Of a stretch of 35,243 bases of DNA, positions 8,179 to 34,109 are shown in pieces. Both the position numbers and the translations under genes were made by a program. This DNA is from a virus, in the IMG/VR virus record IMGVR_UViG_3300036046_000371, positions 1-35,243 of that record; one strand, given 5' to 3'. The notes beneath the pieces are model-generated. The model was not told the DNA's origin. It made no database searches and worked only from the letters and a program-made list of their open reading frames with translations. The first letter of the stretch is position 1, and every line of letters starts with the position of its first letter.

Positions 8179-8682
8179 GTCGTCTTGCTCCTGGGTGGTT
8201 TGAGCGGTGTGCTCAGGGATAGGCTCGGAGAACGAGACGGCATCCGCCGGCTCGGAAAACTCGATGTCCTTCAGCCCCTTGACGGCCGGCGGCTGCGCGC
8301 CGAGGTAGGCAACGTGGCGCGGATACCAGACGCCCGGCTTCGGGTTGCTCGGATCGGTGGGGTGATAGAAGGCTGCGCTGCGCTTCTTGAAGCGCCCGGC
8401 ACGGACCATCTCGGCGAACTGCGGTTCGACCTGGTTGTGCGCAGCGATCTTGAGCACGCCGCCCTCGGCCACCAGGCGGCTGACCCAGCCATAGGCCGGG
8501 CGGTCACCCTCGGGGTGGCCGACGGTCAGCGGTGCTTCGTGGAGGGTGGGGTCGTAGGCCGCAGCGGCGGCGGCCACGTCGGCATCGGTGATGGTGTAGA
8601 CCTGACCGTTCTCGGCGGTGCGTGTGCCGGAGCGGAAGATCTCGATGCCGGTGGGTAGGAGCTGCTGCGTGGCGGTCGTCAT
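7687..8682 (-). CDS. Prohead protease with C-terminal scaffold, Mu gpI type
   Basis: This 331-residue protein is the Mu I-type prohead protease. Residues 1-145 hold the protease domain with the family signature LTVGHPEGDRPAYGWVSRL (52-70) and RFKKRSAAFYHP (97-108). From residue 169 it becomes a Gln/Ala-rich coiled coil followed by a C-terminal helical domain, which is the scaffold part. In Mu-like phages the protease matures the prohead by removing the scaffold, and the scaffold also exists as a separate product from an internal start (see the nested feature). It is the first gene of the leftward virion arm, preceded by the 17-bp late element. The start at 8682 is the first ATG after that element. 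Confidence 0.92.
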   Translation of the reverse strand: MTTATQQLLPTGIEIFRSGTRTAENGQVYTITDADVAAAAAAYDPTLHEAPLTVGHPEGDRPAYGWVSRLVAEGGVLKIAAHNQVEPQFAEMVRAGRFKKRSAAFYHPTDPSNPKPGVWYPRHVAYLGAQPPAVKGLKDIEFSEPADAVSFSEPIPEHTAQTTQEQDDMTKELQAQLDEANAKLAQAQADAAAAQQQARDAQAQAVQFAEQAKAERKAQLVSFAEAQIQAGRLLPKDKDMAVATLVALDAAAPVEFSEGDATRKVSPLQWLQDLITGAAPKVQFGEFAPGAVAAGAKGKSDAEIDQAARAYAAQHKVSYAEALGAVTSFSA

Positions 8683-8714
8683 GCCGCCACTGTCGGGCCC
8701 GGGCGGCGCCGGGG

Positions 8715-8731
8715 CCGAGTAAAACGCTTTA
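8715..8731 (-). promoter_or_regulatory. Late-arm element, left copy
   Basis: Read on the minus strand the element is TAAAGCGTTTTACTCGG. It begins 5 bases beyond the Mor-family stop codon and ends 32 bases before the protease start. It matches 15 of 17 bases with the element at 19914-19930 before the rightward lysis/head arm, in the same orientation relative to transcription. The inner TTTACT matches a -10 box at 4 of 6 positions, with no good -35 box, as expected of an activator-dependent promoter. It may be the core of a Mor-dependent promoter or an operator. Confidence 0.65.
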
Positions 8732-8736
8732 GTAAA

Positions 8737-9183
8737 TCAGTCCGAGTCCAGCCCGGGCAGGCGGCCCTGCCGCCGCTCGTACTGCTCGCGCTGCCAGGTG
8801 TCGACGATCTGGCGCACGCGCATCTCGGTCAGCCCATACTCGTGGGCCAGCTCGCGGTAGTTGTTGCCGCGGAACTTGGCGCACATCTCCCGGTCGCGCG
8901 CCGAGAGCTGGGCGACCAAGCCCTTGGCAATGTAGATACCGCCGCGGCCGCCCATCTCCTGCGCCAGGTGCTGCAGCTGGGCCAGCACCTGGCCGGCCCA
9001 GAGCTGGAGCTGGGCGAGCCATTCGTCCGCGGGGGCTGCGGTGCCGGCGCGCGGGTCGGCCAGCACCAGGGCTTCAAACAAGCACAGCGCCAGGTCGCGC
9101 ATGCCCTCGGCCAGGCCGATGGGCAGGCGCGGCTCCAGCTGGGCCATCTCGGCCTGGCTGACGAAGCGGCGCGGAGCGTTCAC
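8737..9183 (-). CDS. mor: Mor-family middle/late transcription activator
   Basis: A 148-residue protein with the Mor/C family C-terminal region: GGIYIAKG, then LSARDREMCAKFRGNNYREL, then a helix-turn-helix HEYGLTEMRVRQIVDTWQRE. Mor-family proteins are dimeric activators that recruit RNA polymerase to phage middle or late promoters lacking a -35 box. The start is GTG at 9183, overlapping the gp16 stop as GTGA, with a perfect GGAGG seven bases upstream; longer frames read into the preceding gene in a non-coding register. Only one Mor/C-type gene is visible, so it may combine the jobs of Mu Mor and C, firing both divergent late arms. Confidence 0.92.
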   Translation of the reverse strand: MNAPRRFVSQAEMAQLEPRLPIGLAEGMRDLALCLFEALVLADPRAGTAAPADEWLAQLQLWAGQVLAQLQHLAQEMGGRGGIYIAKGLVAQLSARDREMCAKFRGNNYRELAHEYGLTEMRVRQIVDTWQREQYERRQGRLPGLDSD

Positions 9184-9848
9184 GCCGAGGCCTCCGCGCT
9201 GGTGCTGGCCAGCGGGTCGGTCCGACGGGCGTTCAGCGCCTCGGTGAGCGCCTCCCAGGCATGCCAGTTCGCATCGAAGCCGCCGCCCGCGGCACGGTTC
9301 ACCGCCGCCTGCAGGGACATGGCCTGCGCCTGGCTGAAGCGCTGGCAGCGGTGGGTCTCGGCGATGTCGGCCTTCAGCTTCTCGATCACGGCGGGCAGGA
9401 AGCGCATGGCCCACTTCTTCAGCGTCTCGATCAGCAGCTGCATCTCATCGTGACCGGCCCAGTGCAGGTCATCGACCTTGGCAATGCGCTTGCAGTAGGC
9501 CGCCAGCGCTCGCTCCGAGGGATCGCGCAGCGCCCCCAGCTCGGCAAGGAACAGCCACAGCGCGCGCACCTTGCGAGCGCTCTCGCTGCTGTCCTGGCGG
9601 CGGTCCGGGCGTCGGCCTGCCGTGGGCTTGACGCCCGGCTTGGCAGCAGCGCGTACCTTGAAGCCCCTGGTCTTGAGGTGATCCACCACTGCCTTGAGCT
9701 GCCTCGGCTCCATGCTCGTGGTCGAGTCTGTGCCGCCGACGTTGCGCAGCATCAGGCGGTAGGTGTCTTCATCCATGCCCAGCTCGCGGCGGGCCACATG
9801 GATGAGCTTGACCAGGCGGGCGCGCTGGGTGCGGATGTCGGCTTTCAT
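9180..9848 (-). CDS. gemA: gp16/GemA family regulatory protein (DUF1018)
   Basis: The 222-residue sequence carries the signature of the GemA/gp16 family: an N-terminal basic helix (RARLVKLIHVARRELGMDED), then YRLMLRNVGGTDSTTSM and a Lys/Arg-rich helix, a basic linker about residues 75-95, and a C-terminal region with the ALAAYCKRI and LHWAGHDEMQLLIETLKKWA motifs. In Mu, GemA modulates host gene expression and DNA topology during the lytic cycle; the molecular mechanism is unclear. Its stop overlaps the Mor-family start and its own start overlaps the upstream 63-aa gene in reverse order (ATGA), so the three are coupled. Confidence 0.92.
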   Translation of the reverse strand: MKADIRTQRARLVKLIHVARRELGMDEDTYRLMLRNVGGTDSTTSMEPRQLKAVVDHLKTRGFKVRAAAKPGVKPTAGRRPDRRQDSSESARKVRALWLFLAELGALRDPSERALAAYCKRIAKVDDLHWAGHDEMQLLIETLKKWAMRFLPAVIEKLKADIAETHRCQRFSQAQAMSLQAAVNRAAGGGFDANWHAWEALTEALNARRTDPLASTSAEASA

Positions 9849-10036
9849 GGAAGCTCCTTGGCTGCGGGTGCGGCACTGGGAGTGGGAGCAGGTTCACTGG
9901 AGGGCTGCGGCGCCGGGGCATGGGCCGGCGCCTGGCCGCCCATCAGATCGGCGAGCATGCCGCTGAGGACGCGGGCATGCGCGCCGGTGAGGCGCACGGC
10001 GATGCCGCCACGCAGGTGTCGGACGGTGATGGTCAT
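9845..10036 (-). CDS. Small hypothetical protein (63 aa)
   Basis: A 63-residue protein starting MTITVRHLRGG at 10036, where ATG overlaps the stop of the upstream 68-aa gene. The first 40 residues look like a small alpha/beta unit (IAVRLTGAHARVLSGMLADL); the rest is a Pro/Ala-rich low-complexity tail. No family is recognised. Both ends overlap neighbours by four bases, which argues strongly for a real translated gene. It belongs to the middle cluster downstream of the terminator at 10507-10532. Confidence 0.7.
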   Translation of the reverse strand: MTITVRHLRGGIAVRLTGAHARVLSGMLADLMGGQAPAHAPAPQPSSEPAPTPSAAPAAKELP

Positions 10037-10239
10037 GCTGCGACCACTCCCACCGGCATGTCGGCCCAGGCCACCACGGGCTCGGCCACGATCCCGCCGC
10101 TCTCGCACCAGCGCCACTGCTCGCCATCGAAGAAGCCGGCATCGACACCGCCCACGGCGGTGTTGATGAGCACGGCGGTCTCGGCGTCCGGCATGCCGTC
10201 CTGCGGCAGCTCGCGCCAGGTGATGGTTTCGGTCTTCAT
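10033..10239 (-). CDS. Small protein similar to DUF551 (68 aa)
   Basis: A 68-residue protein with the pattern W-x-LPxDGxPD...VLI...GFFDGEQWRW...VVAWADMP, which resembles the DUF551 proteins common in phages. That family has no established function; it is a single compact beta-rich domain. Both start and stop overlap neighbouring genes by four bases. The length is typical for the family. Confidence 0.78.
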   Translation of the reverse strand: MKTETITWRELPQDGMPDAETAVLINTAVGGVDAGFFDGEQWRWCESGGIVAEPVVAWADMPVGVVAA

Positions 10240-10457
10240 GCCGACACCGCCACGGCCAGTTCGAACACCTGCAGCGCGCTCTCGCTGCTGACGCGCACCA
10301 GCGCCCAGTGCTGATCCGGGTGCAGCTTGCGGGCCAGCGCCAGTGCAGCGGCCTCGTAGCTGGATGTGGAGCTGGCGCGCTGGCCGCGCACCGTGTTGGT
10401 CTGGTGTGTGCCGTTGGAGTAGCGCACGCGGATGATGGTGGTGGTCTTGCTGTTCAT
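10236..10457 (-). CDS. Small hypothetical protein (73 aa)
   Basis: The chosen start is ATG at 10457 (MNSKTTTIIRVRYSNG), because AGGA lies nine bases upstream; an upstream in-frame ATG at 10496 has no ribosome site and lies inside the hairpin region. The product has a short beta hairpin, a Ser/Thr-rich turn, a helix (SYEAAALALARKL) and two strands. I do not recognise the family. It is the first gene after the terminator/hairpin pair, so its expression depends on read-through or a local promoter. Confidence 0.68.
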   Translation of the reverse strand: MNSKTTTIIRVRYSNGTHQTNTVRGQRASSTSSYEAAALALARKLHPDQHWALVRVSSESALQVFELAVAVSA

Positions 10458-10479
10458 GGGCTTGGTCCTTTGCAGCTTG

Positions 10480-10508
10480 TTCAAGCCGCCGCGCAACAGT
10501 GGCTTGAA
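10480..10508 (-). promoter_or_regulatory. Second stem-loop directly after the early-operon terminator
   Basis: Read on the minus strand, TTCAAGCC and GGCTTGAA form a perfect 8-bp stem around a 13-base loop. Its 5' arm starts at the last bases of the T tract of the terminator at 10507-10532. Two hairpins in series in front of the GemA-Mor cluster could form a read-through control point or be a protein-binding palindrome. The structure is visible; the role is inferred. Confidence 0.5.
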
Positions 10509-10532
10509 AAAACCCCGGCCGTCTGCGCCGGG
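10507..10532 (-). terminator. Intrinsic terminator inside the early operon
   Basis: On the minus strand CCCGGC and GCCGGG form a 6-bp stem around a 7-base loop and are followed by G and then six T. This is a classical Rho-independent terminator. It lies 31 bases downstream of the 56-aa gene and separates transposition/Gam genes from the GemA-Mor cluster, so it probably marks the early/middle boundary. Confidence 0.82.
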
Positions 10533-10563
10533 AAAGTCAGGCTTTCACCTGATCAGGGAGTAA

Positions 10564-10734
10564 TCAGACGTCGGTCGGGCCGATCTGGATCTTCTTGGGC
10601 TCGGGCGGCGGTAGCGGCTTGCACAGCTCGCAGGCGAACACCAGCAAGGTGCCGTGCTCGCAGCGCAGCGGGCCGTAGGCCCCAGTGATCACCGCGTAGG
10701 CTCCGATGGCCTCGTCATCGAAATGGCCGCTCAC
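10564..10734 (-). CDS. Small Cys-containing hypothetical protein (56 aa)
   Basis: The start is GTG at 10734, with AAAGGA about seven bases upstream; the longer open frame upstream overlaps the next gene with non-coding composition. The product (VSGHFDDEAIGAYAV...) has CEHG and CELC motifs, which could hold one metal ion as a small zinc-binding knuckle, then a proline-rich tail (PLPPPEPKK). It overlaps the preceding gene by 20 bases. Family and function are unknown. Confidence 0.62.
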   Translation of the reverse strand: MSGHFDDEAIGAYAVITGAYGPLRCEHGTLLVFACELCKPLPPPEPKKIQIGPTDV

Positions 10735-10918
10735 GGGAAGTCCTTTCAGCCTGAGTTCGCGCCAGGGTGACGGCGTGCCAAGAATTGAACCCTTTCGCCT
10801 TGGCGACCATCTCCAGCGCTGCATGGTGCGGGATGCCCGCTTCCCGCACCATGCGCTTGGCGGCGCGCTTCATTCCCTCGACGAGCGTCGCCGTTGCCTG
10901 AGGTGCAGCGGTGCTCAC
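10715..10918 (-). CDS. Small basic protein with glyoxalase-related N-terminal-like motif (67 aa)
   Basis: The GTG start at 10918 overlaps the Gam stop (GTGA), with GAGG upstream. The 67-residue product has the pattern KRAAKRMVREAGIPHHAALE followed by MVAKAKGFNSWHAVTL. The pattern basic helix, then ALE-hA-x-x-GF-x-SWxA, recurs in small phage/plasmid proteins and in a short glyoxalase-related domain of unknown function. The C-terminus is basic (RTQAERTSRERPFR). Function is not known; a nucleic-acid-binding accessory protein is possible. Confidence 0.66.
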   Translation of the reverse strand: MSTAAPQATATLVEGMKRAAKRMVREAGIPHHAALEMVAKAKGFNSWHAVTLARTQAERTSRERPFR

Positions 10919-11430
10919 GCCACCACCTCGGCCGCCGCCTCGAAGGGGGTGATCAGGAAGTCCTCGACGCCGCTGACGATGGCAATGCCGGCGATGCCCT
11001 TCACGGCCTCGGGCTCGTTCAGCATGGCTTCCTTGTTCGGCGCATTGGTGACGCGCACGAAGCGACCCAGGCCCATGCGCAGCAGCGTCTCCATCACCGC
11101 GTCGGCGCCGCGGATGCTGACGCTGGGCGGGCGCTGGCGCCAGGACACCTCGCCGGTGACCAGGTTGGCGGTCTTGCCCTTGCCGCAGAGCTCTTCGCGG
11201 TGGGCCTCGCAGTAGAGCTGCACGCCCTCCTGCAGAACCTGCAGGCGGCTTTGCAAGGCCTCCAGCGCCGGCTGGTGTTGCTGGGTGATCTGGGCGATCT
11301 TGTCGTTCATCTCGGCGCGCTGGCGCTCGAAATCGCGCTGCAGGTCGCCGATCAGCCTGATGTCTGCCGCGCAGTCCGTGCGGGTCTGCGGCACCTGGAC
11401 AGCGGCTTTGGCCTTGAGACGGGTTGCCAT
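10915..11430 (-). CDS. gam: Host-nuclease inhibitor Gam, Mu type
   Basis: A 171-residue protein with the Mu Gam pattern: an N-terminal helix, a long coiled coil (IRLIGDLQRDFERQRAEMND to LQVLQEGVQLYCEAHRE), then the beta region TANLVTGEVSWRQRPPSVSI and a C-terminal helix with KEAMLNEPEAVKGIAGI. Mu Gam is a Ku-like dimer that binds double-strand DNA ends and protects linear phage DNA from host exonucleases. The length equals that of Mu Gam (about 174). It follows the B/67-aa/80-aa cluster in the early operon. Confidence 0.93.
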   Translation of the reverse strand: MATRLKAKAAVQVPQTRTDCAADIRLIGDLQRDFERQRAEMNDKIAQITQQHQPALEALQSRLQVLQEGVQLYCEAHREELCGKGKTANLVTGEVSWRQRPPSVSIRGADAVMETLLRMGLGRFVRVTNAPNKEAMLNEPEAVKGIAGIAIVSGVEDFLITPFEAAAEVVA

Positions 11431-11459
11431 TGGGTCTTGCTCCTGTGGTGGGTTGGTGA

Positions 11460-11702
11460 TCAGTGGGTGGTGGGCGGTGCGCTGCTGGGCAACTCGCCCA
11501 GCTCGGCGGCCAGGCGGCGCAGCACGGCAGCGGTGCGTTCGGTGAGTTCGCCATCGCAGCGGGCCAGCGCCGCGGCATAGGACAGCGCGCCCAGGACTGC
11601 GACGACCGGCGGCGTGTCGTCGGGCGTGGCCTGCTCCAGCAGCAGCGCGAAGTCCACGATCTGCTGCTCCGAGATCTCGCGGGCATGGCTGCGGCGCTTC
11701 AT
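11460..11702 (-). CDS. Small hypothetical early protein (80 aa)
   Basis: An 80-residue, mostly helical protein (REISEQQIVDFALLLEQATP and LSYAAALARCDGELTERTAA), starting MKRRSHA and overlapping the upstream gene by four bases. The composition and good ribosome-coupled start indicate a real gene. No family recognised. It lies between the 67-aa gene and gam in the early transposition operon. Confidence 0.7.
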   Translation of the reverse strand: MKRRSHAREISEQQIVDFALLLEQATPDDTPPVVAVLGALSYAAALARCDGELTERTAAVLRRLAAELGELPSSAPPTTH

Positions 11703-11902
11703 GCCAGCACCTCCGCGGCGGCGATGGCGGCGGGGACCTCGGCCGCCTGCCTGGCGGCCACGGGCTCGACGTCGATCTTGGTGGCGCCGGGGAAGCGGTC
11801 GCGGGCGACTTCCAGCGCGTCGAAGATGTCGGCGTAGCTGCCGCGGTGCTGGCCCCGCGAACCGTCGGGCATGTGTATGGTGATGAGGAACAGGTTCGCC
11901 AT
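11699..11902 (-). CDS. Small hypothetical early protein (67 aa)
   Basis: ATG at 11902 (MANLFLITIHMPDGSRG) lies two bases beyond the B stop codon, with GGGGTG upstream. The product is an alpha/beta mini-domain: strand LFLITIHM, loop PDGSRGQHRG, helix SYADIFDALEVARDRF and strand TKIDVEPV, then an Ala-rich tail. Small proteins with this layout occur beside B in B3-like phages, with no established function. The stop overlaps the next start. Confidence 0.72.
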   Translation of the reverse strand: MANLFLITIHMPDGSRGQHRGSYADIFDALEVARDRFPGATKIDVEPVAARQAAEVPAAIAAAEVLA

Positions 11903-11904
11903 GC

Positions 11905-13134
11905 TCAGCACCCCGCGATGACCTGGGCGTCGACCTTGGGCCAGGCGGCGCGCGCGGCGGCGTTCATGGCGCGGGCGACCAGGTTGTTGACGACCAGCGG
12001 GTGGCAGATGCTGCGGGCGTCGGTGAGCTTGCCGCCGCGGGGCATGTCCACCAGGCGGGCGCGGATCGCGTCCACGGCATCGGGCGCGAACACATCCTCG
12101 AATTTCAGATCGAAGCGGGCGAACTTGTGACGCAGGTAGCCTTCCAGGTCGGCGTCCAGGGGGCTGAGTTCCACGAGCTCGCAACGCTGCATCACCTCGC
12201 GGACCTCCGGGTTCTGGCTGTTCAACCGCTCGCGCAGCTCGGGCTGGGCAATCAGGGCCACGCCGATCAGGCGCTGCATGCCGTCCTTCAGCTCCGTGAA
12301 GCGCTTCAGGTGCTTCAGCGTGGCGGTGGGCAGGCAGTGCGCCTCCTCGATCAGCAGCAGGTGGCGGCGGCCAGAGCGGCGGCTGGCCTTGAGCAAGGCA
12401 TGCACCTGGGCGAAGCGCGCCTGGGGGCTGCTCTTGACCTTGAGCTGCGGGTCCAGCGCATCGGCGATGGCTTCGGCGATATGGCTGGCCTTCAGGGTCT
12501 TGCCCTTCTGGTCGTTCTGCTCCATCGCCAGGGTGTACGGCCGGATGACCACCACCTCGCGGCCCTCGGCCTTGATGCGCTCCTCCAGGTCCTCGGCCAG
12601 GGTGCTCTTGCCGGCGCCCGACTGACCGACCACGGCAATGAAGCCGTGGTGGTTGGCGCAGTCCATCAGCGCGGCGCGGACGTAGCGAATGCTGGAGTTC
12701 TGGAACACATCGTCGGGCGTCTGCACGTCGTCGACGAAAGGGCTGCGCGGCAGGCCGAAGTGCTGGCGCGCTTCCAGGGACAGGGATTGGTTCTGCAGTA
12801 GCATCATGGTCAGGTCCTCCGGGTCAGGTTCGGTTCGGGCTTGGGGATCGGCCTCGTTGCGTTGCCGCGCATCGGGGCCTTCTTCTTTCAGGGCGGCCAC
12901 AGGGCCGTTTTGCGAGCCGGATGCGGCATCGGTACGGCCGGGCCGCGTTGAAGGCTTGCAGGGGGTTTTTCCCGCCGGGATAAAACCATTGCCGTGGCGG
13001 CCGGCCAATGCCTTGCGTACCGTCTCGCCAGCAACGCCCAGTTCGGCGCCCACCTGCTTGTGCGTCAGACCTTGCGCGCGCAGCTCGCTCATGCGCTCTA
13101 AAAGGGCTGGCGTGATCGTGATCGGACGGCTCAT
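11905..13134 (-). CDS. B: Transposition target-capture ATPase B with N-terminal HTH
   Basis: From ATG 13134, which overlaps the A stop (ATGA), the protein is 409 residues. Residues 1-48 form a helix-turn-helix (LRAQGLTHKQVGAELGVAGE), residues 50-108 are a polar linker, and from about 110 the AAA+ ATPase begins, with Walker A GQSGAGKST (170-178) and Walker B LLLIEEAH (259-266). MuB is an AAA+ protein with an N-terminal HTH that polymerises on DNA, delivers target DNA to A and gives target immunity, so the layout matches, though the linker makes it longer than MuB (312). A second start at 12807 or 12804 with GGAGG upstream would give an ATPase-only product of about 300 residues. Confidence 0.92.
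   Translation of the reverse strand: MSRPITITPALLERMSELRAQGLTHKQVGAELGVAGETVRKALAGRHGNGFIPAGKTPCKPSTRPGRTDAASGSQNGPVAALKEEGPDARQRNEADPQARTEPDPEDLTMMLLQNQSLSLEARQHFGLPRSPFVDDVQTPDDVFQNSSIRYVRAALMDCANHHGFIAVVGQSGAGKSTLAEDLEERIKAEGREVVVIRPYTLAMEQNDQKGKTLKASHIAEAIADALDPQLKVKSSPQARFAQVHALLKASRRSGRRHLLLIEEAHCLPTATLKHLKRFTELKDGMQRLIGVALIAQPELRERLNSQNPEVREVMQRCELVELSPLDADLEGYLRHKFARFDLKFEDVFAPDAVDAIRARLVDMPRGGKLTDARSICHPLVVNNLVARAMNAAARAAWPKVDAQVIAGC
12802..12820 (-). promoter_or_regulatory. Internal ribosome site and tandem ATG within B
   Basis: GGAGG followed by eight bases and two ATG codons in a row (12807 and 12804) lies in frame within B, exactly at the junction between the HTH-linker part and the ATPase part. 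It could produce a separate ATPase-only B protein of about 300 residues, the size usual for B in B3/D3112-type phages. Use of this start is inferred. Confidence 0.55.
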
Positions 13135-14903
13135 GCGCCACCTCCCGCCACCACACGCAGCCCTGCCCGGACGGTGAGGCGAGCCGCCAGCTCGTCGAGC
13201 TGGTCCTCGGGCACGCCGTCGGGGTGCCAGGCGCGGATCTGGGCGTGGCGCTCGGCGTTCAGCGCCAGGCCCTTGTCGGCGAGCAGGCGGGCCACCTCGA
13301 AGTGGGTGAGCACGCGGGCCGGCGCGGCCGTGGTGACGACGGTCGGCCGCAGCTCGGTGCCGCGGCGCGGCAGGAAGGTGCGCTCCGGCGCCTGCTCGAT
13401 GGGCTTGTAGGGGTCGATCCGGCCACCAAAGGGCACAGCCCCCTTGGCCTTCTTCTTGGCGGCGGCCTCCGCGTCGGTCTGGGCATCCCAGGCGAAGCGC
13501 TCCACCTCCTTGCGGTTGGTGTCGAGCAGGGTGTCGGCCGGGCGCCGGTAGTCCTCGCCGATGACATTGCCATCCATGCGGAAGCCGGCATCGTCGCGCT
13601 GCACGACGGGGACGCTGTGCAGCAGCTCGTTGCCATCGGCGTCGGTATCGATGATGGCGGCGGTGTCGGTGGCGTAGGGGCTGTAGGTCACCATCACCTT
13701 CTCGCCGACCATGGCGTTGGGCACGCCGCGCACGTCGAACTCGCGGCCCTTGAACTGGACGGTGAGCGTGTCGCTGACCTTGCGGGACTCGGGCTCGTGC
13801 GTCATCAGATCGCGGCAGAACTCGGGCGACGGCGCCAGGCGCAACTGCTCGGCGGTGATCGTCATCCACTGCTCGACGCGGGTGCGGCCGTGGCGGCTGT
13901 GCACTTTGTGGGTGTTGTACCAATCGGCCCAGCGACAGGCCTGTGCATTGAGCTCGGCCAGGTTGGCCACCGGCATCAGGCGCAATGCCGGCTCGAAGCT
14001 GCGCTCGATGATGTCGCGGGCCTTCTCGACCTGGCCGGTGGCGCGGGCGTTGCCCGGGGCGTGGGCGATGAGCTTGACCTGCAGACGGCGCGCCAGGTTC
14101 TTGAACAGGCCGCTGGTGTTGGCGGCGCCCATGTCCATCATCAGGATGAGAGGCACGCCGTGGATCAGCTGACCCTGCTGGACGAAGGAGATGAAGCTCT
14201 CAGCCAGGTTGGTGCCCGACTCGGCGCCCAGCACATAGTTGAGCTTGATGGCGCCGCTGTAGTGGTCGGTGTACTCGTAGCTCCAGACCCGGTCCTGCTC
14301 GATGGCCTTGAGGTTGGCGGGCTTGTTCTTGTAGAAGCGCTCGCGCTCCATCACCTGCAGGCCGGCCTCGCGTTCGCTCTCGGCGTGCAGGTAGTACAGC
14401 ACGCACAGGCTGGCGTCGATCAGGCCGACATGGTTGCTGTGCAGGCTCTTCAGCTCGACTGCCGGCGTGGGGCGGTTGAGCTGATCCGGGTGCATGCCGT
14501 ACACGCGCAGGGCCCGGGCGATGGCGCTGTCGGACAGCGGGCGCAGCTCGCCGCTGGCATCGTCCAGCGCCTCGGCGCGGATCTCGCCGTTGGCGCGCAG
14601 GATCTCCACGGCCTGGCCGATGGAGAGCAGGCGCTTGTTGTTCTTGCGCTGGCTGGTGATCAGCAGCGCGCTGATGGCCTTGGCTTCGTCCCGCGTGAGC
14701 GAGACGGTGCCGGCATCTGATCGTTGCTTGCGTTCCTTGGGCTTCATGGCGACCTTGTTGAGGTGGCGGTGCAGCGTGGCCAGGCTGACACCCAGCTCCG
14801 CGCAAGCCGCGCTGTAGATGGCCCCCTTCGCGCCGAGCCCGGCCGCGGCGGCGGCCTGAGCCACCTCGACCAGGCGTTGGGTGGTGACGGCGTTCAGAGC
14901 CAT
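13131..14903 (-). CDS. A: Transposase A (DDE recombinase, Mu type)
   Basis: From ATG 14903 the protein has 590 residues. The N-terminus holds helix-turn-helix segments (AELGVSLATLHRHLNK about 35-50; ISALLITSQRKNNKRLLSIG about 77-96). The catalytic core has D163 (HVGLIDASL), D257 (ILMMDMGAAN) and E293 (RATGQVEKARD), a classical D-x93-D-x35-E triad. A C-terminal beta barrel (VQFKGREFDVRGVP about 450) and a basic tail follow, as in MuA, where the tail contacts B and ClpX. MuA is 663 residues; this is a shorter B3-like version. A 59-codon longer frame upstream is non-coding in character. Its stop overlaps B. The function is replicative transposition of the phage DNA. Confidence 0.95.
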   Translation of the reverse strand: MALNAVTTQRLVEVAQAAAAAGLGAKGAIYSAACAELGVSLATLHRHLNKVAMKPKERKQRSDAGTVSLTRDEAKAISALLITSQRKNNKRLLSIGQAVEILRANGEIRAEALDDASGELRPLSDSAIARALRVYGMHPDQLNRPTPAVELKSLHSNHVGLIDASLCVLYYLHAESEREAGLQVMERERFYKNKPANLKAIEQDRVWSYEYTDHYSGAIKLNYVLGAESGTNLAESFISFVQQGQLIHGVPLILMMDMGAANTSGLFKNLARRLQVKLIAHAPGNARATGQVEKARDIIERSFEPALRLMPVANLAELNAQACRWADWYNTHKVHSRHGRTRVEQWMTITAEQLRLAPSPEFCRDLMTHEPESRKVSDTLTVQFKGREFDVRGVPNAMVGEKVMVTYSPYATDTAAIIDTDADGNELLHSVPVVQRDDAGFRMDGNVIGEDYRRPADTLLDTNRKEVERFAWDAQTDAEAAAKKKAKGAVPFGGRIDPYKPIEQAPERTFLPRRGTELRPTVVTTAAPARVLTHFEVARLLADKGLALNAERHAQIRAWHPDGVPEDQLDELAARLTVRAGLRVVAGGGA

Positions 14904-14910
14904 GGCGTGC

Positions 14911-15825
14911 TCAGTCCTTCTTGCCCGCAGGGAAGGCCCATTCGGACACCTCGGCCGCCAGCTCGCGCTGGGCCAGGGTGGAGGCGTCCGGCAACTTGAA
15001 CTCCTCGCGCAGCGCGGTGAGCTGGGCTTGCACCTGGCCGACCAGGCCGGCCATGAAGACGGCATGCTGGTCGCGCTCATCGCCGTGGTTGGCCAGGGCG
15101 ATCAGGGCCTGGCGAAGATTGCCGAGGATGGCGCCCTCGGCGTCGTTGGCGATGCTGGTGGCCTCTTTCTTCAGCCGCGCCAGGTCCTCGTCCGGCGTGA
15201 GCTTCTTGATGCGGAGCAGGTCGCGCTCCAGCTTCTCGATGCGCGCCTGCTTCTTGTCGGAGACTGCCTTGTCCGCCAGGCGCTCCTGGCGCTCTTCGCG
15301 GACGGCAGCGCGCAGCTGACGCACGGACATGGTGGCAACGTCGTCGAGGGCAAGCTCTCCCGTTTGACCAAGCTCCAGTAGCTCGTCGAGTTGCTCGTTG
15401 TCCAGGATCAGCATTTCGGTGAGCTTGGAAACGCCAAGGGCGTTCAAATCCGCAGACGTCTGCGTATTTGAGAATCGGCGCGTCACCTGCATGTACTGTT
15501 GCGCCGCACGCTGCTCCAGCTTCAGGCGGTCCAATGTCGGCAGGAATGCACCGTGCGCGCAAGCCTCTTTCAGCAGGAGCAAGTAGCCTCCCAACTCGAA
15601 GGTCGCCATGCCAATGCGCCGGATGGCATCTTTCGCCGAGTTCTCCAGAACGGCGGGGTCAGTGCTGCCCTGGTAGTTGAGCTGCTTGGCCAGCGCGGCG
15701 ACGCGCTCGTTCTGTTCCAGCCTGGCCACAGCCAGCTGATTGGCGGCGGCGGTGTCGGCCTCCAGCGTGCCGGGCACGAGCGTGGCTTCCTTGACTTGCG
15801 GGACGGGTGTGGGTTTGCGGGGCAT
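14911..15825 (-). CDS. Early DUF3102-like protein preceding transposase A (304 aa)
   Basis: This 304-residue protein directly precedes A (stop 7 bases before the A start). Residues about 60-125 show the pattern IGMATFELGGYLLLLKEAC then HGAFLPTLDRLKLEQRAAQQ and YMQVTRRF, similar to the DUF3102/KfrA-like family found in phages and plasmids. The middle (165-215) is a long charged coiled coil (AAVREERQERLADKAVSDKK), and the C-terminus is helical. Related genes sit in the same place in B3-like phages. A DNA-binding or partition-like accessory role in transposition or immunity is possible but not known. Confidence 0.82.
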   Translation of the reverse strand: MPRKPTPVPQVKEATLVPGTLEADTAAANQLAVARLEQNERVAALAKQLNYQGSTDPAVLENSAKDAIRRIGMATFELGGYLLLLKEACAHGAFLPTLDRLKLEQRAAQQYMQVTRRFSNTQTSADLNALGVSKLTEMLILDNEQLDELLELGQTGELALDDVATMSVRQLRAAVREERQERLADKAVSDKKQARIEKLERDLLRIKKLTPDEDLARLKKEATSIANDAEGAILGNLRQALIALANHGDERDQHAVFMAGLVGQVQAQLTALREEFKLPDASTLAQRELAAEVSEWAFPAGKKD

Positions 15826-15851
15826 GTGATCTTGTTCGGGCTGTCAGTCGG

Positions 15852-16175
15852 TCAGAGGGGCGTTGCGTAGCGACGGTTCAGGTCGTCGAGGTTCTGGCGG
15901 GCGGCGTTCAGCTCGGTGGCTACGGTGATGCCGATGCGAGCCAAGGCCGGGCCCAGGCGCCAGCGGTTGGTGCCGGGCACCTGCTCGACGAAGCCGGTCT
16001 CGGCCGCGATGGCGGGCAGGTTCACGGACACCCAGGACGGGCTCACGTCGATGGCCTTAGCGATCTCGCCCGGGGCCAGGCCCAGCAGCACGTGGCCGGC
16101 CAGCAGGCGGTAGAGGTCGCAGCTCTTGCGGATGGGGGCGGACAGGGTCTTGTCCGTGGCGGTGGTGGTGCTCAT
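15852..16175 (-). CDS. Winged-helix DNA-binding protein (107 aa)
   Basis: A 107-residue protein with a clear winged helix: LYRLLAGHVLLGLAPGEIAK then AIDVSPSWVSVNLPAIAAET and a wing FVEQVPGTNRWRLGPAL. The order is similar to the N-terminal domain of IclR-type regulators. Such proteins recur in the early operon of Mu-like phages. Its start overlaps the stop of the 81-aa gene. It probably binds phage or host DNA; the target is unknown. Confidence 0.84.
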   Translation of the reverse strand: MSTTTATDKTLSAPIRKSCDLYRLLAGHVLLGLAPGEIAKAIDVSPSWVSVNLPAIAAETGFVEQVPGTNRWRLGPALARIGITVATELNAARQNLDDLNRRYATPL

Positions 16176-16417
16176 GCCGCGGCCTCCCGCGGCAGGCTGG
16201 CCAGCACGCGCTGCAGCTCGGTGGCCAGGGCCTGAGCTTCAGCGCGGGTGAGTGTCAGCGAGCTGTAGCAGCCGGCGGCACCGGCGCACAGGGTCAGGTC
16301 ACCACTGCGCGGAAAGTAGGTGACCGTCATCATGCGGCCGCGATGGCTGAACATCTCGGCGCTGTCCGTCGACGTGGGCACGAAGGCCGGCGGCAGGGTC
16401 GGGTGGCTGGTGCTCAT
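16172..16417 (-). CDS. Small hypothetical early protein (81 aa)
   Basis: An 81-residue protein starting MSTSHPTLPPAFVP. The central part is a beta hairpin (MMTVTYFPRSGDLTLCAG) and the end a helix (TRAEAQALATELQRVLASLP). It lies between two early genes with a four-base overlap downstream and three bases upstream. No family recognised. Confidence 0.7.
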   Translation of the reverse strand: MSTSHPTLPPAFVPTSTDSAEMFSHRGRMMTVTYFPRSGDLTLCAGAAGCYSSLTLTRAEAQALATELQRVLASLPREAAA

Positions 16418-16420
16418 GCC

Positions 16421-16615
16421 TCAGGCTCCCGCGCGGCGGGCGCGCTGCTCGGCCAGGATGGCCAGATTGACGATGCGGGCCTCGGCTTGGCGTGCATGGT
16501 GCAGGCACTGGCGGCGGGTGAAGTGGATCGAACCACCCTTCGCGGCCTGACTGCGCCAGTGCTGACGGCCTTGCGCCGCGTTGACGGCATGGTTGAACAG
16601 CTCGATGTCGGTCAT
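16421..16615 (-). CDS. Small basic hypothetical protein (64 aa)
   Basis: A 64-residue, basic, helical protein (MTDIELFNHAVNAAQGRQHW...) with a start that overlaps the stop of the upstream gene by four bases. It contains several His and one Cys but no clear metal motif. Likely a small early regulator or accessory protein. Function unknown. Confidence 0.68.
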   Translation of the reverse strand: MTDIELFNHAVNAAQGRQHWRSQAAKGGSIHFTRRQCLHHARQAEARIVNLAILAEQRARRAGA

Positions 16616-17091
16616 TGCTCAAACTCCAGTTCGGGCGTGGCGAAGGCCGCCACGTTCTTGTGGTGGTAGGCCACCTGTTCGAGGTGGGTGCGGAGGGCTT
16701 CCAGCGTGGCGGCCGGATCGGCCTGGCCGTTGGCCGCGTAAAAGTCGGTGAGCAGCTGCAGGGCCTGGGCACAGCCGGCGTTCAGCGCCATCAGCTCGCC
16801 AGGCTGCGGGGCCTTGCCGCGCGGCATGTCCACCAGCAGCTTGTTGCCGGTGGCGGCCAGCCAGCGCGTGACGAAGCAGCAGCCACAGGCGTGCTCGTAG
16901 GCGTGCACGTTGACCAGCGGCATGCGGCCGTTGGCGATCCACTTGTAGAGGGCCCAGTGGTCCTCCAGGCCCATGCGGTCGGCAATGCGCTCGACGCTGA
17001 GGCTGTGGCGCTCCAGGGCGTAGTCCTTGCAGGCCTTCAGCGCGCAGCGCAGGCTCGCGGGCTGGTAGGTCTTCCAATTGCGGCGCGTCAT
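16612..17091 (-). CDS. Early regulatory-like protein with putative HTH (159 aa)
   Basis: Chosen start is ATG 17091 (MTRRNWKTYQPASLRCALKA) with GAGG about nine bases upstream; a longer open frame upstream is the shadow of the plus-strand gene. Residues 30-70 read as a helix-turn-helix-like segment: LSVERIADRMGLEDHWALYK followed by WIANGRMPLVNVHAYEHACG. Proteins with this layout occur near the start of the early operon in Mu-like prophages of beta- and gammaproteobacteria and are often described as CII-like or phage regulatory. The C-terminal half is helical with no known motif. An inverted repeat covers its start region. Confidence 0.75.
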   Translation of the reverse strand: MTRRNWKTYQPASLRCALKACKDYALERHSLSVERIADRMGLEDHWALYKWIANGRMPLVNVHAYEHACGCCFVTRWLAATGNKLLVDMPRGKAPQPGELMALNAGCAQALQLLTDFYAANGQADPAATLEALRTHLEQVAYHHKNVAAFATPELEFEQ

Positions 17092-17129
17092 TGGAAAGCC
17101 CTCGCAGCCAGGCCCGAACGGGCTTCCAA
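17091..17129. promoter_or_regulatory. Inverted repeat between divergent early genes
   Basis: TTGGAAAGCCC (17091-17101) and GGGCTTCCAA (17120-17129) are inverted copies with one unmatched base, 18 bases apart, and enclose a second small palindrome (GCCCGAACGGGC, 17113-17124). They lie directly at the start of the 159-aa minus-strand gene and 80 bases before the plus-strand gene at 17210. An operator or an mRNA hairpin masking the start is possible. Confidence 0.5.
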
Positions 17130-17209
17130 ACAAAAGCCGCGGCTGCATCTGGTCAGGGCCAGTGCCGGCTGACAGAGTGGATGCCACCACGACACCGAAG
17201 GAGCGGAGC

Positions 17210-17590
17210 ATGAGCACACCAGACCTGCAGCCCAAGCAAGTGGCATGGCTGCGCGAGCAGGTGCGCCAGGAAGTCGAGCAGCGCGTAGCACCGCTGCGGC
17301 GCGAGCTGGACGGACTGGACGATTGGGCGAACGGTGTGTTCGCGGCGCTGCTGGACCTGCTGTTGCCCCTGCTGAAGTCGCACCCCGAGCTGGCCGGCAC
17401 GCTGGAAGCGCTGTGGAGCCGGGCCGCCGAGCAGTACGCCGAGCTGGAGCGCAGCCCGCAGCGGCGCGCCGAACTCCAGACCACGCCCGAACTGCTGGAA
17501 GCGCGCAAGATGCTGTACTGGGTGCTGGGCCAGCTGGGCCAGTGGCCGAGCAGGAAGGCGAAGCGACCGCGGCGCAAGCCGGTTTCGTGA
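17210..17590 (+). CDS. Opposite-strand hypothetical protein in early region (126 aa)
   Basis: A 126-residue protein on the plus strand, facing the early operon. ATG 17210 has a perfect AAGGAG six bases upstream. The product is acidic to basic helical: WLREQVRQEVEQRVAPLRRE, then LDDWANGVFAALLDLLLPLL, then LEARKMLYWVLGQLGQWP, ending in a strongly basic tail KAKRPRRKP. The codon use is like that of neighbouring genes. It is convergent with the Ner-like gene and divergent from the 159-aa gene, so it must be expressed separately from the early operon, perhaps from the lysogen. No family recognised. It could be a moron or a control gene. Confidence 0.72.
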   Translation: MSTPDLQPKQVAWLREQVRQEVEQRVAPLRRELDGLDDWANGVFAALLDLLLPLLKSHPELAGTLEALWSRAAEQYAELERSPQRRAELQTTPELLEARKMLYWVLGQLGQWPSRKAKRPRRKPVS

Positions 17591-17694
17591 CGGCCTTGGC
17601 ACTCCGCTGGGCGCACATCGGTCGCAGCTGCGCCGAGGTCGGGGTGGCGAGGGGATTCATTGATAGGATGGGCGTGTAACCGTCTGTCAGCCGA

Positions 17695-17886
17695 TCAGGC
17701 TGCGCTATCGGAGCTGGGCTTCAGGCCGAGCTTCACGGCGATCTCATGGGCCTTGCCGTAGTGGCCCTTGTCGAAGCCGTTCAGCACGCGCAGCACCTGG
17801 TTGACTCGGTAGCCGTTGTCGCGAGCCCATTGGCTGAAGGTCTGGCCGCGCTGACGGAATCGTTGTTTCACTTGGTCGGGGGTCAT
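17695..17886 (-). CDS. ner: Ner-like DNA-binding protein (63 aa)
   Basis: ATG 17886 with AGGAG eight bases upstream gives a 63-residue protein; a GTG at 17940 would add 18 residues but lies in the promoter. The sequence (VKQRFRQRGQTFSQWARDNG, then YRVNQVLRVLNGFDKGHYGK) is the small DNA-binding family that stands in for Ner/Cro in Mu-like phages. It is the first gene of the early operon and divergent from the repressor, so it should damp both early transcription and repressor synthesis after induction. Confidence 0.86.
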   Translation of the reverse strand: MTPDQVKQRFRQRGQTFSQWARDNGYRVNQVLRVLNGFDKGHYGKAHEIAVKLGLKPSSDSAA

Positions 17887-17927
17887 TGCCGTGGCTCCTG
17901 TGCCAAAGTTCGTTAGCAGTTGTTGTG

Positions 17928-17956
17928 ATTGTTTATCCACTTGGCGAATTCGTCAA
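17928..17956 (-). promoter_or_regulatory. Early promoter candidate (minus strand)
   Basis: On the minus strand TTGACG (17956-17951, 5 of 6 to consensus) is followed after 17 bases by AACAAT (17933-17928, 4 of 6). The -35 box lies inside the operator-like palindrome at 17940-17957, so repressor bound there would block polymerase. Transcription would start near 17921, about 35 bases before the Ner-like ATG. Confidence 0.62.
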
Positions 17957-17966
17957 GTGGCGAATT
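17940..17966. promoter_or_regulatory. Immunity operator: palindrome plus repeated half-site
   Basis: CTTGGCGAATTCGTCAAG (17940-17957) is an 18-bp palindrome with a single mismatched pair. The word TGGCGAATT occurs at 17942 and again at 17958, 16 bases apart, giving a second half-site next to the repressor start at 17975. This lies between the divergent ner and repressor genes and is the best operator candidate in the window. A -35-like TTGGCG at 17941 would place the rightward transcript start near the repressor ATG itself, which also lacks a ribosome site, so the repressor message may be leaderless. Confidence 0.7.
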
Positions 17967-17974
17967 TATTGCGT

Positions 17975-18331
17975 ATGCCAAAGAAGCCCGAACTGTCAGA
18001 AGAGGACGAAGCCCTACGCAGGGAGTTCGGTGATCGAGTGCGGACCACGCGGGAGGGCTTGGGCCTGAAGCCGCTGGAGTTCGCGGCCATCGGCGGGGTC
18101 AGTCAGGCTCACCAGTACCGCATCGAAGCCGGTGATCGCACTGCCGAGGTGCTGTACGTGCAGCGGCTGCAGAAACGGTTTGGGGGGTTGATCGTCAGCA
18201 TGCTGTTCGGCGAGTCGCCCGTGGGCCAGCAACCGAAGAGCGGGGGCGGAATCAGCTTGGTCAATCACGCTGCTGGATCGGTGCAAGTCGGTTATGCAGG
18301 CGGCAAGGTGAAGGTGAAGAAGGGGCAGTAA
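17975..18331 (+). CDS. Phage repressor, XRE-type HTH with GSVQVG tail
   Basis: Start chosen at ATG 17975 (MPKKPELSEEDEALRREFGD), giving 118 residues; the upstream in-frame extension overlaps the operator. Residues 20-65 are a helix-turn-helix of the XRE type: RVRTTREGLGLKPLEFAAIG then GVSQAHQYRIEAGDRTAEVL. The C-terminal end lacks a peptidase domain and carries AGSVQVGYAGGKVKVKK (100-116), which recurs in the next gene. Divergent from ner and flanked by an operator-like palindrome, it is the immunity repressor. There is no ribosome site before the start. Without a LexA-like protease domain, induction must work by other means than RecA-stimulated cleavage. Confidence 0.84.
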   Translation: MPKKPELSEEDEALRREFGDRVRTTREGLGLKPLEFAAIGGVSQAHQYRIEAGDRTAEVLYVQRLQKRFGGLIVSMLFGESPVGQQPKSGGGISLVNHAAGSVQVGYAGGKVKVKKGQ

Positions 18332-18420
18332 GTGCGGGAGTTGTTAGGGAGGGCGCTCGCTGCGCTCAAGAGCCTGAAGCCACAGCTACAAAACGAAGGG
18401 GCAGGCTCGGTACAAGTCGG
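18272..18420 (+). repeat. Direct repeat shared by repressor and next gene
   Basis: A 20-base stretch at 18272-18291 (inside the repressor) recurs at 18401-18420 (inside the following gene) with 17 of 20 bases identical, 129 bases apart. Both encode AGSVQVG in the reading frame of their own gene. A weaker third copy (NLQVG, then GSV) starts near 18488. This indicates duplication of a short coding module across the gene border. Confidence 0.75.
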
Positions 18421-18877
18421 CAAGGCGGGTGGTTCCGTCAAGGTCGTGAACATCAACCAGGCGGCGCCATTGCCAAGCGGCGGTGATGGCAATCTGCAAG
18501 TCGGCCAGGTGCAGGGCTCCGTGACGCACACGCGTGTGGTGCAGCAGGTTGTGCATCAGCACTTCTATGCGGCTGCTCCACCGCCGGCATCAGTCGAGCG
18601 CACCGCAGTTGCGCCGCCTCCGGCATCTGCTCCGCCGCAGCAACCGGCGAAGCAACGGACGGCGCAGCATCTGAGCCCGCTCCACAAGGAAGTGCTGACG
18701 CTGATGGAGCCGCTGCCCAAGAAGGTCCGCGTCGGCGTTCTGGAGTTCATGCGGCGAGAGTTCGGCACCGCGATGGTCAAGGAACTGCTGCCCCAAGAGG
18801 TGTACAGGGTGAAGCTGTACGTGCAGCAGGTCATCGCGAACCGGAAGCGCGAAGCTGCCACACACGAGTTTCTATAG
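18332..18877 (+). CDS. Repressor-partner protein with repeated GSVQVG motif (181 aa)
   Basis: GTG at 18332 follows the repressor stop with no gap, so translation is coupled. The 181-residue product has GAGSVQVGKAGGSVKVVNIN (23-42) and NLQVGQVQGSVTHTRVVQQ (54-72), both akin to the repressor C-terminus, then a Pro/Ala-rich linker (80-105) and a C-terminal helical domain (LHKEVLTLMEPLPKKVRVGV, then LEFMRREFGTAMVKELLPQE). The last domain faintly resembles the ORF6C-like domain of phage antirepressors. The shared beta motif suggests that the two proteins pair through it. A modulator, co-repressor or antirepressor of immunity is an inference. Confidence 0.75.
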   Translation: MRELLGRALAALKSLKPQLQNEGAGSVQVGKAGGSVKVVNINQAAPLPSGGDGNLQVGQVQGSVTHTRVVQQVVHQHFYAAAPPPASVERTAVAPPPASAPPQQPAKQRTAQHLSPLHKEVLTLMEPLPKKVRVGVLEFMRREFGTAMVKELLPQEVYRVKLYVQQVIANRKREAATHEFL

Positions 18878-18901
18878 GAAGCACCAGGGAGGTGAGTCAC
18901 T

Positions 18902-19351
18902 ATGCAAACAGCTTGCATCAAATGCGGCCATGTCAACCATCAGGCCAGCGGCTCGACCGATGAAGCCTGCCCACGATGCCATGTGATCTATGCGAAGGCG
19001 CGTCCGCGTCAGAGCGCCGAGGGGCGCGCGTCGGGCTTCGCGCCGACGACGATGTTCGGCGGCGATAGCGCCGACTATGTGCGACAACTGCGGACCGAGA
19101 GCCAGTACCCCGCATTTCGAACGGTCGCGGGCGTGCTGGCGCTGCTGGGCTATTTGCTGGGTATTTTGGTGCTGATTGCTGGCCTCGTGGCTGGGTGGCG
19201 CATGGGCAGTGCGGGAACGATGGTCGGTGGCCTGGTTGGTGGCTGCTTGATCGTGCTGTTGGCAAAGGCGGCCAAGGAGGCGGCACAGATGCTGGCCGAC
19301 TTGAGTGATGCCACCTTGCGCACGGCGCAACGACAGGAGCGCGGCGCATGA
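18902..19351 (+). CDS. Zinc-ribbon two-TM membrane protein (149 aa)
   Basis: The N-terminus has CIKCGHV and CPRCHVIY (C5, C8, C23, C26), a zinc ribbon. Residues about 70-120 give two membrane helices (VAGVLALLGYLLGILVLIAG and MVGGLVGGCLIVLLA), and the C-terminus is a soluble helix. GGGAGGTGAG lies upstream of the start. Bacterial membrane proteins of this shape are common and uncharacterised. It lies between the immunity genes and the lysis arm and overlaps the DUF4124 gene by four bases. It is probably a lysogen-expressed accessory gene; superinfection exclusion is possible but unproven. Confidence 0.8.
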   Translation: MQTACIKCGHVNHQASGSTDEACPRCHVIYAKARPRQSAEGRASGFAPTTMFGGDSADYVRQLRTESQYPAFRTVAGVLALLGYLLGILVLIAGLVAGWRMGSAGTMVGGLVGGCLIVLLAKAAKEAAQMLADLSDATLRTAQRQERGA

Positions 19352-19854
19352 AGTTTGGCCTCCTACCAGTTGCCTGCATGCTGGCCGCGCTGCACACGCC
19401 GGCAATCGCGATCAGTAAGTGCACTGGCCCTGACGGCAAGACCGTTTTCCAGGATGCGCCGTGTGCCGGCAAGGGCGAGAAGGTGGTGGTGAAGCCAGCC
19501 TCCGGCGAGGCTCCGCAGCAGGCAACTGCTGCCGGCGCGTCGTCAGAAGGCCAGCGCCTGCAGCAACAACTCAACCAGATGCAGTCCGAGCGACGGCGTC
19601 GCGACCTTGAGATCGCCCTGCCCAACGCTTATGCGGAACGGGCAAGCCACAGCGCAGCCTGCGATCAGGAGCTGAGCGCACTCCGGGCGAAGAAGGCGAT
19701 GGCCAACAACAACTTGGCCGGTGCGACCTGGCAGCAGTCGCTGTCGACCGAGATGGCAGCGGTTGCCTCGCGCTGCGAGACGCGCAACAACAACATCACC
19801 ACCAACATCGAAGCGCTGCGTAAGGAATGCCAGGCGTTGGGTGGGTGCAAGTAG
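19348..19854 (+). CDS. Secreted DUF4124-domain protein (168 aa)
   Basis: A signal peptide (MKFGLLPVACMLAALHTPAI, cleavage near residue 21) is followed by KCTGPDGKTVFQDAPCAGKG (24-43), the DUF4124 signature, and a helical, Gln/Asn-rich C-terminal region with three further Cys residues. DUF4124 proteins are periplasmic proteins frequent in proteobacteria, with no known activity. The start overlaps the membrane protein stop (ATGA), so the two are cotranslated and may act together in the envelope. Probable lysogenic accessory gene. Confidence 0.85.
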   Translation: MKFGLLPVACMLAALHTPAIAISKCTGPDGKTVFQDAPCAGKGEKVVVKPASGEAPQQATAAGASSEGQRLQQQLNQMQSERRRRDLEIALPNAYAERASHSAACDQELSALRAKKAMANNNLAGATWQQSLSTEMAAVASRCETRNNNITTNIEALRKECQALGGCK

Positions 19855-19913
19855 TCCAGCTCCGTCCGCTCGCCCTCGCGTGCGCGGGGGCGGGGGCGGT
19901 CGCTCTCTCGTTG

Positions 19914-19930
19914 TAAAGCGCTTTATTCGG
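19914..19930 (+). promoter_or_regulatory. Late-arm element, right copy
   Basis: TAAAGCGCTTTATTCGG, containing the perfect palindrome TAAAGCGCTTTA, ends 33 bases before the holin ATG at 19964. It matches 15 of 17 bases with the left copy at 8715-8731. TTTATT could serve as -10 box (4 of 6) without a good -35 box. It precedes the rightward lysis/packaging arm and is probably activated by the same regulator as the left arm. Confidence 0.65.
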
Positions 19931-19963
19931 TAGCACCGCACCCTGCTCGGCACAGTGGGGTGC

Positions 19964-20380
19964 ATGAGCCAAGCCCACACCCCCACTTCTCCCAAGTCGC
20001 TCGCTCGGCGCTGTGCCGCCAGGCTGAAGCGCCCGCCGCGCTTGAGCGGCTGGTTCCTGATCGCGCTGCTGCTGGCCGCGCTGGTCTGGGCCACCGCGCC
20101 GCAGCAGCTGCCGGTGAGCTTGTACAAGCTCAGCTTGGTGACGCTGGCCGGGGTGGTGGGCTATTGGCTGGACCGCAGCATGTTCCCCTACGCGCGGCCG
20201 GATGCCTTCTTGCCGGACATGCGCGAAGCCGGCGACTTCCTGGATCTGCCCCCCGGCGATTCCGCCTGCACGCTGCTGGTCGCACCGGATGAATCGCAGC
20301 TTCGGCTGGCCGGCACGGCGATGATCCGTCGCGCCCTGATCGTGGCGGCCACGATGTTGGCCATGGGGCTGGGCGCATGA
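19964..20380 (+). CDS. Putative holin (138 aa, three membrane helices)
   Basis: ATG 19964 begins MSQAHTPTSPKSLARR; a GTG nine bases upstream is an alternative. Predicted membrane segments lie at about 29-45 (GWFLIALLLAALVWATA), 53-69 (LYKLSLVTLAGVVGYW) and 121-137 (ALIVAATMLAMGLGA). It is the first gene of the rightward late arm and overlaps the transglycosylase gene by four bases. The pattern, with RSMFPYARPDAF after the second helix, is familiar from putative holins of B3-like phages. It would time endolysin release. Confidence 0.82.
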   Translation: MSQAHTPTSPKSLARRCAARLKRPPRLSGWFLIALLLAALVWATAPQQLPVSLYKLSLVTLAGVVGYWLDRSMFPYARPDAFLPDMREAGDFLDLPPGDSACTLLVAPDESQLRLAGTAMIRRALIVAATMLAMGLGA

Positions 20381-29365: not shown

Positions 29366-29372
29366 GTGACCC

Positions 29373-34041: not shown

Positions 34042-34109
34042 TGTGGATATCTCACCTTCGTTCATCATCGCCGCCGGGACGATAATCCGGGCAAACGAGG
34101 ATGCCAGCC

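Follow-up and report, generated by a model that had tools for sequence, protein, structure and literature searches.

How are the two late arms of a phage switched on together, and where do their messages begin? This question is raised by two short elements in the viral record IMGVR_UViG_3300036046_000371, whose whole 35,243-nucleotide (nt) stretch is called the window here; all positions are those of the window. An earlier note on this DNA had described a 17-mer in front of each arm, TAAAGCGTTTTACTCGG at 8731-8715 on the minus strand and TAAAGCGCTTTATTCGG at 19914-19930 on the plus strand. Both were found at these coordinates, with identity at 15 of 17 bases. As described, each is oriented along the transcription of the arm it precedes, and the gap from its end to the ATG is 32 bases on the left (ATG 8682, minus) and 33 bases on the right (ATG 19964, plus). 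A degenerate search for the 17-mer (<=3 mismatches) gave only these two sites in the window, a third row being the right site in reverse reading, and the chance expectation was a mean of 0.04 in 100 dinucleotide shuffles.

Based on the arrangement of the surrounding bases, it is very probable that the 17-mers are the upstream halves of class-II Mor-dependent late promoters, which would be leaderless and carry a hairpin around the -10 element. In the window, a 12-base-pair (bp) dyad TAAAGCGYTTTA is followed by 25 nt, a hexamer, 6 or 7 nt and ATG. These promoter parts are the following:

8720-8731, minus strand: left putative activator dyad TAAAGCGTTTTA, centre about -43 with ATG as +1
8689-8694, minus strand: left -10-like hexamer GACAGT (NANNNT), 24-25 nt past the dyad
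19914-19925, plus strand: right putative activator dyad TAAAGCGCTTTA, a perfect palindrome
19951-19956, plus strand: right -10-like hexamer CACAGT

The centres of the dyad and the hexamer are 33-34 bp apart, so that, with the hexamer taken as the -10 element, the dyad is centred at -42.5 to -43.5. In the Pm promoter of phage Mu, the dyad of the Mor dimer at -43.5 replaces the -35 element (PMC4390567, PMC4287176). The window promoters likewise have a dyad near -43.5, a position that assumes the predicted transcription start, and no -35 element; no consensus sigma-70 promoter was found near either copy in the two regions. In addition, several positions immediately preceding the dyad are rich in A (0.51-0.77 A), where a proximal UP element contacted by the alpha CTD might lie. 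By its position, the palindrome TAAAGCGYTTTA is a putative activator dyad in place of the -35 element, and its reading as a -10 box is not supported.

The earlier note had proposed an activator-dependent promoter without a -35 box. This agrees with the lack of a sigma-70 consensus, but the -10 box had been placed inside the palindromic core, and the hexamer lies 24-25 nt downstream instead. The core is an exact palindrome in the right copy and has one change in the left. The statement that the flanking bases are not conserved proved wrong, since GCACAGT or CGACAGT, 6 or 7 nt ending in C, and ATG trail both sites and are strongly kept in relatives. The earlier interpretation was thus partly supported: its central idea was correct, but the parts were mislabelled, and neither the leaderless geometry nor an inverted repeat that flanks the -10 element had been noticed.

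The -10-like hexamer ends 6-7 nt before ATG, which leaves no room for a leader and would place transcription initiation on the A of AUG or on an adjacent base. A C before the A of ATG makes a typical pyrimidine-purine transcription start. The geometry argues strongly that the 5' ends of the late mRNAs would coincide with AUG or lie no more than one or two bases from it, making them leaderless. A Shine-Dalgarno (SD) tetramer was present in 3/77 promoter-proximal genes versus 256/467 operon-internal genes of the same phages (Fisher p 1e-19), and at the position set by the promoter ATG dominates over GTG and TTG as the start codon. Both marks of a leaderless message, no SD sequence and an AUG start, were therefore found. 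Copies with a leader (such as L117, L183 and L047) retain the hexamer with no ATG after it, which marks the hexamer as an element in its own right. In phage B3 (L097, NC_006548), the protease B3ORF36 is annotated from CTG 19857, and an in-frame ATG at 19887 is preceded by GCCGCCTCACTCTGGGCGGC. The promoter geometry and the in-frame ATG suggest that the true start of B3ORF36 is ATG 19887 and that it is probably leaderless.

The same layout recurs in related phages. The set comprised 77 distinct copies, less than about 85% alike, with chance two-mismatch palindromes removed prior to counting. Loci were also fetched via the Mor protein, independently of the motif, and most of these Mor-anchored loci contain the dyad and the hexamer directly after mor. 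In the 77 copies, the hexamer begins 24 or 25 nt past the dyad, A-11 and T-7 (hexamer positions 2 and 6, NANNNT) are kept in 76/77, and C precedes ATG in 73/77. The ATG was offset from the dyad by 36, 37 or 38 nt in 28, 33 and 30 cases, respectively, which make up 91/91 within the 34-43 range; a smaller group at 28-29 nt mostly has the ATG inside the hexamer region. Scrambled palindromes gave no comparable peak of ATG offsets. Scans of whole records showed between 1 and 4 copies followed by a correctly spaced ATG in 23/30 phages, the control total being one match. The downstream genes belong to about 14 unrelated groups (45 protease, 8 holin and 6 peptidase-type endolysin genes, the others being tape measure, lysozyme-like and baseplate genes by sequence), which argues that the shared promoter sequence is not inherited coding homology alone. 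Absence of the motif upstream of the same genes in relatives had been named in the earlier note as a finding against it; the motif was looked for and is present there. Matches in the viral collection to the 17-mer only included chance matches in unrelated contigs (L085, L086, L090, L092-L095) and were set aside.

Variant arrangements were observed among the relatives. In several records (for example G006 24825-24836, G010 29369-29380, G012 21730-21741 and G013 7538-7549, the records behind L133, L143, L145 and L147), one symmetric dyad lies between two divergent promoters, each with a hexamer and ATG at the usual spacing; these are apparently bidirectional late promoters with a common activator site. 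Pseudomonas phage Bise (L099) contains four dyad-hexamer-ATG copies at 7040 (minus), 15740, 19223 and 29284, and its arms are swapped relative to the window, the lysis-packaging arm coming after Mor and the protease being on the opposite side. In the subclade of L155, L158 and L154 (G016, G017, G030), TCAAGCGCTTGA stands in place of TAAAGCGCTTTA before the protease; only one TCAAGCGCTTGA site was found per record, so a diverged site may serve the second arm. B3-like and related phages have another conserved element, GCGTTTATAAAC or a near variant, ahead of the protease promoter and behind mor or whichever gene comes before it: just after mor in L120, L159, L173 and L181 and upstream of the protease in L097 and L098.

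Which protein would bind the dyad? The genes next to the two sites are the following:

8737-9183, minus strand: mor-family activator gene, 148 amino acids, GTG start (Pfam Mor, PHROG late transcriptional activator, profile matches)
7687-8682, minus strand: head maturation protease gene (PHROG 976, 1.2e-87), first gene of the left late arm, predicted leaderless ATG at 8682-8680
19964-20380, plus strand: holin gene (PHROG 1528, 7e-35; Pfam Holin_2-3, 2.7e-30), first gene of the right late arm, predicted leaderless ATG at 19964

The Mor-family open reading frame (ORF) adjoins the left copy, as the earlier note had said, its end at 8737 being 5 bp away. It matches Pfam Mor PF08765 at 3.7e-16 (score 59.5, cut-off 24.9) and the PHROG late transcriptional activator at 8.5e-18, and its profile matches the solved structures of Mu Mor (1rr7, 1.2e-10) and Mu C (9l0x, 5.7e-12). 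The protein is thus a member of the Mor/C family, having a Mor domain with a C-terminal helix-turn-helix, and no second Mor/C-family ORF was found in the window. It is well supported that the dyad is the putative site of this activator, the assignment being based on indirect grounds, namely the Mu Pm-like position, the adjacency to mor, the single Mor/C-family ORF in the window and co-variation. Dyad copies within one phage are more alike than those between phages (p 0.0016), and phages with a different Mor keep the hexamer and ATG with another palindrome whose centre is unchanged. Where protease-anchored loci lack TAAA dyads, the maximum of palindromicity is 44 nt ahead of ATG (4.11 versus a mean of 2.45, standard deviation 0.43). 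B3 has TTTTCGN6CGAAAA before its holin, protease and tape measure genes, and in the B3-like phage Fc02 these three genes are preceded by a variant of its own. RNA-Seq of Fc02 after induction gave three forward late clusters, the first from holin (PMC9936078), a low-resolution pattern compatible with three promoters of this type. The proposal that one Mor-family activator serves both arms is well supported by the motif before both arms, the association with the Mor family and the recurrence before protease and holin genes in relatives.

The bases around the hexamer contain a further feature. In both window copies, the six bases before ATG complement a stretch just upstream of the -10 element (GCCGCC-N13-GGCGGC and GCACCC-N14-GGGTGC):

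8702-8707, minus strand: left 5' arm GCCGCC
8683-8688, minus strand: left 3' arm GGCGGC, directly before ATG and at the same time the discriminator
19938-19943, plus strand: right 5' arm GCACCC
19958-19963, plus strand: right 3' arm GGGTGC, directly before ATG

Perfect 6-bp arms were present in 21/77 copies, versus 2.6 with arms swapped between promoters, 4 with the upstream part reversed and 1/467 at internal starts, and 11 different arm pairs occur. The independent set without the TAAA dyad gave perfect arms in 4/16 versus 0.9 (p 0.006). Relative to its own shuffles, the sense strand folded with z -1.12 and the antisense strand with z -0.63 (p 1.5e-5), with no such difference at internal starts. 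By folding only, the mean pairing of AUG was 0.55 in the read-through RNA versus 0.28 in the RNA from AUG. The right-arm read-through fold has a 10-bp stem directly before AUG, and RNA starting at AUG has neither window structure. The repeat would thus sequester the surroundings of the start codon, its 5' arm lying upstream of the promoter start, as in the lock of T4 gene e; no terminator in the relevant direction was found near either site in the scan. These folds point to an inverted repeat that may hide AUG in read-through RNA.

The same repeat might act in DNA instead, as a cruciform or single-strand hairpin aiding melting or as the operator of a second protein. That it encloses the -10 element and that its arms covary would suit such a role. 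Loop lengths from 3 to over 18 nt are unlike a protein operator, though, and with the better folding of the sense strand and the fixation of the 3' arm to AUG they make this explanation rather unlikely. It is highly improbable that the palindrome is the operator of some other regulator (the immunity repressor, a Ner/CII-like protein or a host LacI/GntR-type protein) repressing both late arms. A perfect 12-bp palindrome is typical of a dimeric operator, and the phage does encode a CII-like protein and a repressor-like helix-turn-helix protein. However, the sites come after the Mor gene in the Mor-anchored loci of many phages, the dyad centre equals the Mor site of Mu Pm, the sites stand in for the missing -35 element and there is no copy at the immunity switch. 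The original reading, in which the palindrome holds the -10 box (TTTACT/TTTATT) with the activator further upstream and a normal leader of about 30 nt, draws on the A+T-rich core within G+C-rich DNA and is the least probable of all, given that the symmetric dyad and not an asymmetric -10 is conserved, that the A-11/T-7 hexamer is kept downstream even in leadered copies, that other clades have unrelated palindromes at the same centre and that such leaders would be without SD in 74/77.

Based on the class-II Mor promoter reading, we suggest the following sequence of events. A dimer of the Mor-family protein, the product of the end of the early operon, would bind TAAAGCGYTTTA in place of a -35 element and bring the sigma-70 polymerase of the host to a poor -10 (GACAGT or CACAGT). 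Both arms would then fire together, with protease, head and tail genes transcribed leftward and holin, lysis and packaging genes rightward, and the late mRNAs would be translated as leaderless messages without SD. The inverted repeat would put the -10 in a hairpin loop with the 3' arm directly before AUG. In read-through RNA, whose source would be the early mor transcript for the left arm and the immunity operon for the right, the hairpin would hide AUG; the authentic late transcript would be without the hairpin. The dyad, hexamer, fixed ATG spacing, SD lack, inverted repeat and recurrence are seen directly; Mor binding, the start site, leaderless translation and the function of the hairpin we infer from them.

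This reading is a prediction from sequence, and several points weigh against it. Agreement of the -10 hexamer with TATAAT is limited to about 3-4 positions. The promoters share a common descent, 45 of them standing before homologous proteases, so that the 77 copies are not 77 independent events. Concerning the hairpin, in the left-arm read-through fold GGCGGC pairs with downstream coding bases rather than with the upstream arm and AUG is in a loop; the window folds are not extreme against dinucleotide shuffles (z -0.69 and -1.34), and the excess of G-U over A-C mismatches is small (7 versus 2).

The closest known counterpart is Mu Pm, with which the window type shares a Mor-family dimer, a dyad at -43.5 for the -35 element, a weak or plain -10 and an activator gene ending the early operon. 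Pm has a proximal UP subsite upstream of the dyad, and promoters of the window type have A-rich bases at that position. Pm consists of 5-bp repeats with a 6-bp G/C spacer, whereas the window type has a compact 12-bp dyad. A strict search for 5-N6-5 inverted repeats in the Mu mor region did not place the Pm site, and a base-by-base comparison with Pm was dropped. In Mu, Mor serves one middle operon making C, and C fires the late promoters; in the window there is a single Mor-family gene with sites directly before the late arms. The Mu late promoters Plys, PI, PP and Pmom with C have in common with the window type one phage activator, several late operons, related dyads and the Mor/C fold, but Mu has a separate C gene and the window no second ORF of that family. 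No description of leaderless starts in Mu was found in the open literature. B3 and Fc02 are similar in arm gene content; each has a dyad in front of holin, protease and tape measure, three in all, and in their protease promoters the dyad centre is 43 nt from ATG, as in the window type. They differ in the TTTTCG..CGAAAA-type dyad and in a leader before the holin and tape measure genes. In T4 gene e and I-TevI, a late promoter lies inside an inhibitory hairpin, so that read-through RNA is silent and late mRNA is translatable (PMC3014915). The likeness is that the start region is hidden in read-through RNA and late transcripts, starting within the hairpin, escape, a function that is presumed for the hairpin here. 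T4 late mRNAs, however, keep an SD sequence, whereas here the transcript would start at AUG, and T4 uses gp55, in contrast to an activator of sigma-70.

The right copy precedes holin and then endolysin, spanin and terminase genes, and the lysis-terminase region has about 74% DNA similarity to Pseudomonas phage B3. Relatives of the window Mor in sequenced genomes are mainly from Comamonadaceae and other Burkholderiales (Roseateles, Acidovorax, Simplicispira, Giesbergeria). The window phage is probably a B3-like transposable phage of Comamonadaceae or other Burkholderiales. Comparison of the promoter with annotated phages by direct DNA similarity gave a sole match of interest, 28 bases in Curvibacter phage TJ1; a plasmid search gave nothing useful, and an Rfam scan of the window no match. 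A DAHP synthase gene (PHROG 5045, 9e-128) at 34101-35243 (plus) reaches the right end and may be either a cargo gene or host DNA beside the prophage.

In the part of the open literature that was searched, neither leaderless late mRNAs of Mu-like phages nor Mor sites outside Mu were found to be the subject of a paper. Within that literature, the motif was, as the earlier note had it, unlabelled for this phage family, but its kind, the Mor/C promoter, is already known from Mu; what is new is a variant of Mor-type promoters. The predicted leaderless layout, recurring in dozens of related transposable phages, appears to be undescribed so far. Tentatively, we propose that a widespread clade of transposable phages may combine leaderless Mor late promoters with a covarying hairpin, such that only activator-started RNA would be translated, one DNA stretch serving as activator site, promoter, setter of the start codon and translational lock against early or lysogenic read-through.

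With this finding, late promoters and true start codons can be predicted in a large group of transposable phages whose annotation is poor; the group extends from phages of Burkholderiales to those of Pseudomonas, Bise being an example, and on the evidence of geometry includes B3. The finding also predicts that operators diversify with the activator at constant spacing. Leaderless late mRNAs in sigma-70 phages, if true, would be unexpected. They would offer a natural system for high-expression leaderless translation in Proteobacteria and, for the phage, a compact timing device that prevents expression of holin and protease before the activator is present.

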